A program made the position numbers and the translations under genes. Source: a virus. Taken from it: a stretch of 57,451 nucleotides of DNA. Positions within the stretch are counted from its first letter, which is position 1, and every line of letters begins with the position of its first letter. Shown here piece after piece: positions 3,264 through 20,605 of the stretch. Where the stretch lies: positions 1 through 57,451 of IMG/VR virus record IMGVR_UViG_3300035698_003244. One strand, 5' to 3'. The notes below the pieces were generated by a model that was given only the letters and a program-made list of their open reading frames with translations, made no database searches and had not been told where the DNA came from.

Positions 3264-3779
3264 TTAAACCATACCCCAATTGTCTGGGTTTAAGTGTGCC
3301 TTTCCATGACACCCACAACATAACAATTGACATTTATCCAATTCAAAAACTATTTTATCCCATGCTTTCAATCTTAATGTGTTCCACATGTCCGACTTTT
3401 CTCCGACATGATGGAAATCGAATTCCACTGGGTGAAGTCCTTCACGTCCACATGCCTCACAGGCTCCACCCTTATAAGCTATTGCCTTTATCTTAATCTT
3501 ATTCCATCTTATCATGCAATACTTGTTATAGCAAACCTTGCAATAACTTTGTTCATTTTCACCCTTCCTATAAAAATAATCAATTGGCAGAATCCTACCA
3601 CACTTTATGCACTTCTTTAATTTTTCACCAACTGTATCATACGCATCAATTTCCTTCTTAGTGTTATGACACCCAAACGGTGAACACGCCAAACAAAACT
3701 TTCTATTCTGCAAATTTCTACGAACTCCGTCAACTAAAATACTCTTTGGAATATCATTATTACACGCTCTACATTTCAT
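3264..3779 (-). CDS. HNH endonuclease
   Basis: 171 aa. The start ATG at 3779 follows AGGTGTTA; a GTG three codons earlier is less likely. The N-terminus holds treble-clef Cys pairs (CRACNN, CLAC, CIKCGR, CKVCYNKYC). The C-terminal half has CEACGR, then the HNH core DFHHVG and LLCCGCHGKAH (residues about 130-165). Such free-standing enzymes nick DNA and are typical phage homing nucleases, moving into intergenic sites. It lies between two tRNA genes, a common landing place. Confidence 0.88.
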   Translation of the reverse strand: MKCRACNNDIPKSILVDGVRRNLQNRKFCLACSPFGCHNTKKEIDAYDTVGEKLKKCIKCGRILPIDYFYRKGENEQSYCKVCYNKYCMIRWNKIKIKAIAYKGGACEACGREGLHPVEFDFHHVGEKSDMWNTLRLKAWDKIVFELDKCQLLCCGCHGKAHLNPDNWGMV

Positions 3780-17895: not shown

Positions 17896-18432
17896 TTAAA
17901 GATTGTTTACGATAGCTTTAGCCATCTCTATTACTTCAGCGTCTGTTCCGTCATTCTTAGCATAATTAACAATACAAGCAACATATCTTACATTACCTTT
18001 GATGTAGCCCTTTGAACTATCTATTCGATCAAGACTAGCGTGCTTATGTGATGGACCAGAACGCCATCCGGCTGTGGAGTTAGGTAACTGTAGCTTCCAA
18101 CCAGTTAACGGGCATATACCAGACTGGTCTTCCCACAATTTCTTAAGCCACTCAGCCGTAATATCATGATAGTCGCCACGCCATTTACGATATCTGCACC
18201 TAGCTATAAACCACTTAAATGGTGTTAATACAGTTCTCCTATTATCAGGACATAATCTATCAGCGTCCTCTGGTTTACTATACTTACCACCAGTATTTCT
18301 AACTATAACCGAACAGGAATGACCACAAAAATTTCTACGCCCTAACTTAATTGATCGTTTATACTCCTTTAATGGCCTATTAAAAGTATTATTACACCCA
18401 GGATTGTCGCATGTCAATTTAACTGTCTTCAT
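17896..18432 (-). CDS. HNH-type endonuclease
   Basis: 178 aa from the ATG at 18432, behind GGAGGTGGATT. The N-terminal 45 residues hold a zinc motif (CDNPGCNNTF, NFCGHSCS) common in phage HNH proteins. The core has GICPLTGWKLQL, then SLDRIDSSKGYIKGNVRYV and a C-terminal Asn/Lys-rich helix, matching the HNH/EndoVII-like nuclease type in which LDRID-S-GY--GN--- is the metal site. It sits between tRNA-Cys and the tmRNA. An inverted repeat CCACCTCC/GGAGGTGG brackets its leader. Confidence 0.88.
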   Translation of the reverse strand: MKTVKLTCDNPGCNNTFNRPLKEYKRSIKLGRRNFCGHSCSVIVRNTGGKYSKPEDADRLCPDNRRTVLTPFKWFIARCRYRKWRGDYHDITAEWLKKLWEDQSGICPLTGWKLQLPNSTAGWRSGPSHKHASLDRIDSSKGYIKGNVRYVACIVNYAKNDGTDAEVIEMAKAIVNNL

Positions 18433-18498
18433 AATCCACCTCCAACAACAGCTTAACAAACTGCAGTGGAGGTGGCAAGAGTTAATTTACATTTAAAT

Positions 18499-18946
18499 TG
18501 GTGGAGGTGGGCGGGAACGATCCGCCGTCTTTAAAATTATTAAACTATGCTTGTACGTGTGTATCCACATTATTGGTCGGTAGAGTGGCCACCGTTTAAA
18601 CGTCTTTCCGCCAGCGTCAGGGCTGCATTCGCAATCTTCCACCGGAGTGCCCATCCAGTTCCACGTCTACTCCGTGGTGTCCTTCCCTGTTTGTTTAACC
18701 TCAAGCATGGTTAGGGACCCAATACTTTTTTGGTGCCTGCTCGTTAGAGCGAACTTACGCAGCACAAAGTGCTGGTGTGGCTAACTCATTAGAGCCAGCC
18801 AGCATCGCAGCAAATTTACTACCCAGTTCACGGGCGTGTGTTGTCAGTGTTTTAGCACTTATGTTTTCCGGTTTTTTAAAGAGGCCAACCAGACCCTCTA
18901 CACGTATCATAATCCCTTAATTTCAAATCGAAACCAAGTCACCCCC
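18499..18946 (-). ncRNA. ssrA: tmRNA (transfer-messenger RNA)
   Basis: 448 bases. The 5' end GGGGGTGACTTGGTTTCGAT matches the tmRNA start consensus. G1-G7 (18946-18940) pair with CACCTCC near the 3' end, followed by A73 and encoded CCA (18499-18501), and the T arm is GGCGG-ATCGTTC-CCGCC. ACGTGT and ACACGT help form helix P2. The first pseudoknot, GAGGGTCTGGTTGGCCTC, then AAAAAACCGG, closely resembles the enterobacterial one. The tag frame begins with GCT at 18854-18856 just after CATAAGT and runs 33 codons to TAA at 18755-18757, starting AKTLTTHARE and ending NELATPALCAA. A hairpin GCTC/GAGC follows the stop. tmRNA rescues stalled ribosomes and tags nascent proteins for proteolysis; a phage copy may favour recycling or degrade host proteins. 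No SmpB gene is seen. Confidence 0.92.
18755..18856 (-). other. tmRNA tag reading frame (33 codons)
   Basis: Open frame inside the tmRNA, from the resume codon GCT to TAA. Most tags encode about 8-15 residues. The C-terminal ALCAA keeps the hydrophobic-Ala-Ala end recognised by ClpXP-type proteases. The resume codon is placed by comparison with the spacing from pseudoknot 1; a later GCT (18809-18811) would give an 18-codon tag. Confidence 0.7.
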
Positions 18947-19082
18947 AAAGTGTGTGCCGACCGAAGCCGGAAAAGGGTGGGATGCCATAAGAACATTACC
19001 ATATTATGGCACCCCGATTTTATTTTTATGAAAAATAAGTACACTGTTAGTGTGTCTGCGTTAACCGTTTCAGTTTTAATTA
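18947..19082. other. Non-coding spacer rich in hairpins
   Basis: Between the tmRNA and the permuted tRNA. On the minus strand it holds ACACT/AGTGT, TTATTTTT/AAAAATAA and a long stem GGGGTGCCATAA/TTATGGCATCCC with a 13-base loop. These could terminate upstream transcripts or guide processing. No gene or clear promoter is seen. Confidence 0.55.
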
Positions 19083-19178
19083 GCCGGTGTTTTACCATTG
19101 AACTAATTGGCCAAATATGAACATCCGCACGCGGGTGCTCATGGTGACCAATACGGGAGTCGAACCCGTGCTTCCAGC
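19083..19178 (-). tRNA. Circularly permuted tRNA (3' half before 5' half)
   Basis: Read on the minus strand, a tRNA 3' half comes first (19178-19142): GCTGG, AAGC, T arm ACGGG-TTCGACT-CCCGT, ATTGGTC, A, CCA. After a 29-base linker (19141-19113) a 5' half follows (19112-19083): GGCCAAT, TA, D arm GTTC-AATGGTA-AAAC, A, CCGGC. GGCCAAT pairs with ATTGGTC over seven bases and CCGGC pairs with GCTGG over five, so together they complete a normal cloverleaf that lacks only the anticodon loop. Neither half has a partner in the normal order. The amino acid is unknown. It could be processed from a circular precursor or be the remnant of two adjacent copies. Confidence 0.65.
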
Positions 19179-19362
19179 GTTAGTTTTTGAACGTCTAACC
19201 AGTATCACTTGTAAAGTGCCTCTGAATAAAATTGACTGAGCAATAGTTTCAGTTTCATGCACGAACAACTATCTCTTACCTCGCAAGGTTTTTATAGAAT
19301 CCGTGACTCGTAATTCTGAGCTTAAGTCTAAGCTTTCTCAGAAATTGTTGTGGAGTATATAC
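19179..19362. other. Non-coding leader of the permuted tRNA
   Basis: 184 bases after the stop of the 251-aa gene. It contains hairpin GTTAG/CTAAC next to the tRNA 3' half, and GTTTCAGTTT (19246-19255), repeated at 19067-19076 on the other side of the permuted tRNA. No coding frame and no group I intron core motifs are seen. Confidence 0.55.
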
Positions 19363-20118
19363 CTACTTAAGGGTTCCTGCAAGTATATATTCAGAAATCT
19401 TTTTACCGATGTGTACATCAGGTACTTCGGTGCTATTTGCGCGTTGGCGTGCGGCCTGTATTGCATTGAACAGTTTATCTACTCTGCCAAGCAATTCGGA
19501 CTTCTCAGCCTTACTCAGGAACCCGTACCATCGATATGTGATTGTCTGACCGACGTTAATCGTCTCATTCCACTTTTCGATCTGTGCCGGAAACTCCTTG
19601 GTAGCATTAACGAGAATCTTACTCTTCCAGTCTTTAGCGGTCTTGAACTGGGTATCAGGAACTACCTGCAGCCATACACCATCTTGATCATCTGACCGTT
19701 CATACTTCTTACCCGGTGGCAGAGTCGGTATAAAACCGAGAATCTGACGAAACTGCTTAATCTCTGATTCCATCGCCAGGAGCGTCGTAGAGGGCACGGA
19801 AACCAATAGTGATACATTGTCTACCACAACGTCAGCAGTGGCCTCCTGGTTGGCCTGGTCCACCTGTATGGCAGCATCCCAGTAGTTAACCAGGTGTGTA
19901 AGCGTATATTTCAGCTTATCTGCAATTGTAGAGTCGATTTCTTTTGTGACATCGGTACCCTCTACTGGTACCTTAAGTTCATCAAACGGCATATAAACTG
20001 TACGACTTCCGGAGAACCGGTCGGCCTTACCGAATGCTTTCTGGGCTTCGACCAGCATTTCTTTCTTCAAGGCACGCAAAGAATCGCGTACCGGCAGTAC
20101 TTCATGAATTACAGACAT
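19363..20118 (-). CDS. Conserved phage protein of unknown function
   Basis: 251 aa from the ATG at 20118, which follows AAGGAGACATAAT; upstream codons in frame are not used. The protein (MSVIHEVLPVRDSLRALKKE...) is soluble and helical with a beta middle (ADVVVDNVSLLVSVPST) and TLPPGKKYERSDDQDGVW. Such proteins recur in large phages, but I cannot assign a role. It is co-directional with and two bases from the gene before it. Confidence 0.78.
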   Translation of the reverse strand: MSVIHEVLPVRDSLRALKKEMLVEAQKAFGKADRFSGSRTVYMPFDELKVPVEGTDVTKEIDSTIADKLKYTLTHLVNYWDAAIQVDQANQEATADVVVDNVSLLVSVPSTTLLAMESEIKQFRQILGFIPTLPPGKKYERSDDQDGVWLQVVPDTQFKTAKDWKSKILVNATKEFPAQIEKWNETINVGQTITYRWYGFLSKAEKSELLGRVDKLFNAIQAARQRANSTEVPDVHIGKKISEYILAGTLK

Positions 20119-20119
20119 A

Positions 20120-20605
20120 TTATGTCTCCTTCTTATTTTGTGGTTTATCCAACGCCTTACCAGCGACCCTTGCACAGGTATCTCGTAAAGCATCAAGTGA
20201 TTTGTTTTCATGTATATCTGACCCGGCATCTTCAAGCTCGTCAGATAATACGGTTTCATAAATTTTCTCAAGTGCATCTTTATACACGGCAGCGTCACAT
20301 TTATTGCTATGTGACTCCATAGATCTTATAGACCATGCCAGTCCCAGGAGGTACCTGTCAGATACAGGTTTCTTTGTCAACAATCTGTTAAGTGTGCCAG
20401 CACATATTTCACCGAGCCGGTTACCCTCGATTGCGCAGGATGCATACGATTCAAGATACAGCATAAGCCCAGTGTATGGTAACGCAGCTAAATAATTTAA
20501 TGCGCTCTTCGCCGCTGGATGGGCTTCGCCCTGCAGCAAAGTTGTTCTTAGTTCTTCAGCATTATCTTTTTCTATTACAGACAAATCTTTATCCTTAGTA
20601 GACAT
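20120..20605 (-). CDS. Unknown helical protein
   Basis: 161 aa, all-helical appearance, acidic, with four Cys scattered. Not recognised. Start 20605 follows AAAGGAATCAAC. It is the first gene downstream of the palindrome array at 20654-20996, so that region probably holds its promoter. Confidence 0.75.
   Translation of the reverse strand: MSTKDKDLSVIEKDNAEELRTTLLQGEAHPAAKSALNYLAALPYTGLMLYLESYASCAIEGNRLGEICAGTLNRLLTKKPVSDRYLLGLAWSIRSMESHSNKCDAAVYKDALEKIYETVLSDELEDAGSDIHENKSLDALRDTCARVAGKALDKPQNKKET

Follow-up and report, generated by a model that had tools for sequence, protein, structure and literature searches.

A tRNA-like RNA encoded beside DUF7873

The 57,451-base viral fragment analyzed here (IMG/VR record IMGVR_UViG_3300035698_003244; the whole stretch is called the window, and its positions serve as coordinates) carries on its minus strand an RNA element in which the parts of a transfer RNA (tRNA) follow one another in circularly permuted order. 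The element is very probably a noncoding RNA of the kind represented by YrlA, a bacterial Y RNA. Overall, the data are best explained by a Y-RNA-like tRNA mimic partnered by the product of a conserved neighboring gene of the family DUF7873, and we regard this explanation as likely. RNA and DUF7873 most likely form a stand-alone RNA-protein pair common to phages and bacteria.

The entire predicted RNA, consisting of a leader strand, the permuted tRNA module, and a trailer strand, spans positions 19056 to 19202, with a covariance-model match at 19069 to 19187 (58.3 bits). Read along the minus strand, it begins with the leader strand of an outer helix (CTGGTTAGACGTT, 19190 to 19202, pairing with 19056 to 19069) and the leader side of an internal loop (CAAAAACTAAC, 19179 to 19189). 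The 3' strand of the anticodon stem, GCTGG (19174 to 19178), is separated by AAGC from the T arm, ACGGG-TTCGACT-CCCGT (19153 to 19169), after which come the acceptor 3' strand ATTGGTC (19146 to 19152) and the discriminator A73 with CCA (19142 to 19145). A linker of 29 nucleotides (nt) (19113 to 19141) connects this CCA end to the acceptor 5' strand GGCCAAT (19106 to 19112), followed by TA, the D arm GTTC-AATGGTA-AAAC with G18G19 present (19089 to 19103), A26, and the 5' strand of the anticodon stem, CCGGC (19083 to 19087). The trailer side of the internal loop (TAATTAAAACTGA, 19070 to 19082) and the trailer strand of the outer helix (AACGGTTAACGCAG, 19056 to 19069) complete the RNA.

An earlier note, made from the sequence alone, had described a tRNA 3' half lying ahead of its 5' half across a 29-nt linker, next to a transfer-messenger RNA (tmRNA), with seven acceptor and five anticodon-stem pairs matching across the permutation only. 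This description is borne out on the minus strand. All seven acceptor pairs (six Watson-Crick and one GU) and all five anticodon-stem pairs (four and one GU) form only across the permutation, and the element lies just upstream of the tmRNA gene (18499 to 18946, minus strand). A strict permuted-tRNA scanner picked out the element as its only hit in the window, and 30 Markov shuffles gave no hit. The element is called neither by ARAGORN nor by the Rfam tRNA model. The repeat GTTTCAGTTT on both sides of the element, which the note had pointed out, is taken here, from the window alone, as chance; several such repeats occur in the region, and by our estimate about one exact shared 10-mer is expected by chance per 1.5 kb. 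The repeat overlaps the trailer strand.

Occurrence in phages and bacterial chromosomes

The DUF7873 gene (PF25283; 19363 to 20118, minus strand) encodes 251 amino acids and belongs to the Pfam family with 194.8 bits (E value, 2.6e-57; cutoff, 27 bits). A longer open reading frame, 19363 to 20298, begins upstream of the family start at 20118. The element lies 170 to 190 nt downstream of this gene. As named phages showed no DNA similarity to the window, relatives were sought via the neighboring protein DUF7873. In a relative on another metagenomic contig, the same gene is followed downstream by a permuted tRNA that differs from this one. Among 13 named phages inspected, 12 encode the RNA just downstream of DUF7873; these are phages of Rhizobium, Vibrio, Klebsiella, Arthrobacter, Gordonia, and Pseudanabaena, mostly with one or two copies each. 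A Microcoleus phage and the Lak phages showed no clear copy beside the DUF7873 gene. Prevotella phage Lak-A1 encodes a permuted tRNA whose acceptor and anticodon stem comprise 7 and 5 pairs, respectively (about 215988 to 216102; locus L211, 150 to 350, minus strand).

The counts that follow are based on the best 80 DUF7873 loci of each of two scans, viral and bacterial, and not on a random sample. The viral set comprised 80 loci from environmental viral contigs, some of them near-duplicates, of which 79 included enough sequence. The strict scanner detected a permuted tRNA within 1.5 kb downstream of the gene in 66 of the 79, always on the same strand, with no hits upstream, on the reverse strand, or in 1,600 shuffles. 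A covariance model made from 30 copies with shortened linkers, for which viral matches were counted above 40 bits, added 10 loci (76 of 79) and, in the near-identical pair L058/L060, identified one copy upstream of the gene. Tandem ordinary tRNAs can imitate this model at 25 to 45 bits and are included among genome-wide matches in that range; for this reason, only matches beside DUF7873 were counted. Scans with exact acceptor patterns yielded little, and one exact-pattern match (L010) looks like a coincidence.

DUF7873 is also encoded in the chromosomes of Streptomyces and other Actinobacteria, Bacteroidota, Myxococcota, and sulfur bacteria, and 70 of the 80 bacterial loci have a copy of the RNA at 35 bits or more. 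With the same kind of RNA downstream of DUF7873 in many phages and bacterial chromosomes, the element is not a lone phage oddity. In the few bacterial loci examined, the flanking genes are unrelated to one another, and the pair of RNA and DUF7873 gene therefore seems to stand alone.

Several loci have two permuted RNAs (L033, L037, L063, L086, L113, and L116), one copy having a leucine-tRNA-like D arm (TGGCGGAAT.GGTAGACGC) and the other of a different type. In Klebsiella phage vB_KpM_FBKp24 (L033), a suppressor tRNA of the public record, Sup-TTA (3518 to 3597), overlaps the 3' half of a permuted RNA and is probably a misannotation. Successive units of T arm, acceptor hairpin, and D arm on contig 201 of a Myxococcota genome (G014; locus L208, 170 to 350, minus strand) look like an array of tRNA-like modules, at which ARAGORN called no tRNA.

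In favor of a decayed relic of two tandem tRNA genes, or of parts brought together by chance, the window is rich in tRNA genes (20 ARAGORN tRNAs, all on the minus strand), and adjacent tRNAs can imitate the permuted arrangement at low covariance scores. The comparative data contradict such an origin. The RNA is found at the same position in distant phages and bacteria, and in relatives with different acceptor sequences, compensatory changes preserve the permutation. Because the permutation is kept in this way, a deletion remnant of two full copies, raised in the earlier note as the outcome that would count against it, is excluded, and the probability of a remnant or chance origin as a whole is negligible.

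Conserved structure

Structure statistics were calculated over 81 nonredundant phage copies (80 for some counts) and, for comparison, 73 bacterial copies. The anticodon stem, which was not used in selecting the copies, forms 4 or 5 of its 5 pairs in 73 of the 81 phage copies, compared with 36% after leaders and trailers were exchanged among the copies. The covariation score of the four helices was 0.94, versus 0.23 in shuffled data, the acceptor, T, and D helices having been partly selected for. The residues of the tRNA elbow are kept as well: T54T55C56-R57-A58, T8, and GG in the D loop (some of which the scanner required), Y48 in about 99% of copies, and R26 in about 94%. Past the anticodon stem, the internal loop bears a conserved motif on its trailer side, approximately T-N-A-R-N-N-T-R-A, with a log-likelihood of 91.7 versus 31 to 38 for shuffled sequence. 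The outer helix of leader and trailer has a mean energy of -15.9 kcal/mol, versus -9.7 kcal/mol with partners swapped.

These features bear on the proposal that the element is a permuted tRNA gene. Permuted tRNA genes of algae and archaea have the same order of halves, with an intervening sequence (doi 10.3389/fgene.2014.00063). A true gene of this type would, as happens in algae and some archaea, have its anticodon-loop ends spliced into a circle and then be cut at the acceptor to release a decoding tRNA. The half order and intervening sequence of the element agree with this, and several isotypes are missing from the ordinary tRNA set of the window. However, the anticodon stem is not followed by a 7-nt loop with a conserved U33. 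T occurs at that place in 44 of 80 phage copies and 11 of 73 bacterial copies, and position 33 of the window element, read from the 5' half, is A. The stem continues instead through the conserved internal loop, whose motif is the same after tRNA bodies of different types, into the long leader-trailer helix. At the junction, where a permuted tRNA gene would have a bulge-helix-bulge motif, internal loops are seen. Thus, of the idea of a permuted tRNA gene in a phage, the permutation is real and conserved, while a gene in need of circular processing is not the preferred explanation; such a gene is very unlikely here, and decoding of codons by the element is unlikely.

Group I introns can occur in tRNAs of phages and bacteria, and the exon order would fit a circularly permuted intron of this class that releases a circular tRNA. 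Against this, no group I intron match to Rfam was obtained in 18940 to 19380 at E values up to 10 (a split core being harder to see), only about 140 nt remain before the tmRNA, and relatives have a simple long helix instead. The permuted group I intron was rejected because no Rfam core match was found, and we give it almost no credence.

The acceptor end was considered separately. N73-CCA, which was not used in the search, is present in 60 of the 81 phage copies, whose linkers reach 47 nt, and 70 of the 81 have G1-C72 or U1-A72. Together with the full 7-bp acceptor and the existence of permuted tmRNA with the same order of acceptor parts, this would suit a two-piece tRNA-like RNA from which RNase P and the 3' tRNA-maturation enzymes excise the linker to leave a real CCA end. 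The pieces would be held together by the acceptor and the long stem, as in two-piece tmRNA, and could be aminoacylated or bind the elongation factor EF-Tu. However, just 12 of 73 bacterial copies have N73-CCA, and their median linker is 8 nt. Furthermore, discriminator and acceptor bases vary widely, and there is therefore no single amino acid identity. We consider a two-piece RNA improbable.

DUF7873 as a candidate partner protein

To our knowledge, Y RNAs have been found with one kind of protein partner, Ro60/Rsr. Ro/TROVE is absent from the window, a 57-kb fragment, and is encoded in 1 of the 13 named phage records (RHph_TM30). Of 22 bacterial genomes that have the DUF7873 pair, 11 also encode TROVE, at other places and with YrlA-like RNAs of its own. 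DUF7873 therefore looks like an alternative partner to Ro/Rsr, as judged from gene linkage. Linkage and the YrlA precedent together suggest that DUF7873 is the likely physical partner of the RNA.

Several observations weigh against a Y-RNA-like RNA partnered by DUF7873. Adjacency of the two genes is no proof of binding; moreover, the copy in phage Lak-A1 does not adjoin its DUF7873 relative, and 10 of the 80 bacterial loci, mostly of Bacteroidota, have no recognizable copy. The protein is not basic (median isoelectric point, 6.8). Its AlphaFold model is confident (pLDDT, 92; pTM, 0.80), and fold searches of BFVD and VIA returned no informative structural match. The best BFVD match (E value, 0.0035) is an uncharacterized protein, and the best VIA match, TolC (Z score, 6.0; root mean square deviation, 13.8), is unconvincing; such a lack of matches does not establish a new fold. 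The N73-CCA frequent among phage copies suggests 3'-end processing, for which a plain Y RNA would have no need. Finally, although YrlA (RF02553) is the nearest Rfam family for the full module, which aligns to model positions 30 to 81, the element scores 19.1 bits and the other DUF7873-linked copies tested score 19 to 39 bits, below the Rfam cutoff of 69.

Neither DUF7873 nor an association of it with a permuted tRNA or YrlA was mentioned in the literature searched, which covered few subscription papers. An alignment of 14 DUF7873 proteins was too diverse to scan with.

In the arrangement that we propose, a long stem would carry the permuted module of T arm, acceptor, and D arm at its tip. DUF7873 would bind this stem or the internal loop, the position taken by Ro/Rsr on YrlA, and the tRNA module would be presented to tRNA-binding enzymes, for which polynucleotide phosphorylase (PNPase) and YrlA provide the precedent. 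The pair could thereby steer or block tRNA-handling or RNA decay enzymes and, in phages, might serve as a decoy against tRNA-cleaving defenses. The tRNA-like domain of YrlA has been suggested as a possible anticodon nuclease inhibitor (doi 10.1016/j.celrep.2020.108527). Such a recruiting or decoy role, extrapolated from the YrlA precedent, is a tentative suggestion. There is little likelihood, in our judgment, of a further-reaching scenario, in which DUF7873 and the permuted tRNA would be a new Ro-independent RNA-protein system of phages and bacteria, with phage copies cut at the acceptor end to yield a two-piece tRNA-like RNA whose free CCA is charged or bound by EF-Tu and which acts on translation or on defenses that target tRNA.

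For DUF7873, the linkage provides a testable role, and annotators gain an RNA class missed by ARAGORN and Rfam. The pair also offers a simple two-part system for probing what tRNA-mimicking Y RNAs do.

Neighboring features of the window

The tmRNA at 18499 to 18946 is a one-piece, phage-encoded molecule (Rfam, 104 bits) that is separate from the element and was missed by ARAGORN. Its long predicted tag, AKTLTTHARELGSKFAAMLAGSNELATPALCAA, is followed by a stop (18755 to 18856). Just downstream of the tmRNA, a gene at 17896 to 18459 (minus strand) encodes an endonuclease VII/HNH-like protein (PHROG 3322; E value, 5.5e-19).

Comparison with known permuted RNAs

The element differs from the permuted tRNA genes known in algae and archaea in what follows the anticodon stem: a conserved internal loop leads into a long helix, with no splice junction shown. 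It resembles permuted (two-piece) tmRNA in that the CCA end is encoded ahead of the 5' acceptor strand. However, it is short, has a tRNA D arm, and shows no tag, and the permuted tmRNA model RF04321 gave no match at the element at E values up to 10.

YrlA consists of a basal stem formed from both RNA ends and a tRNA-like domain (doi 10.3390/genes12081125), and it aligns with tRNA by circular permutation (ARTEMIS; doi 10.1093/nar/gkae758). RNAs in which a stem bears a permuted tRNA module are therefore already known. Like YrlA, the element has a T arm, an acceptor-like stem, and a D arm in permuted order and, as the swap test over the set of copies indicates, a basal stem made by its own 5' and 3' ends. 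The covariance model built here (R1) also recovers Ro-linked YrlA, copies of which score 30 to 72 bits on the Rfam YrlA model. The differences lie in the neighbor, DUF7873 instead of TROVE (the Ro60 homolog Rsr); in the N73-CCA and the long linkers that phage copies keep; and in the leader, where a motif derived from Ro-linked copies in the present analysis ([GT][AT]TACTTC or ACTACATC) is found in 1 of 81 DUF7873-linked phage leaders versus 8 of 12 Ro-linked ones. Across phages and bacterial chromosomes, a relative of the Y RNAs, and thus a circularly permuted tRNA, would accordingly be tied to a different protein.
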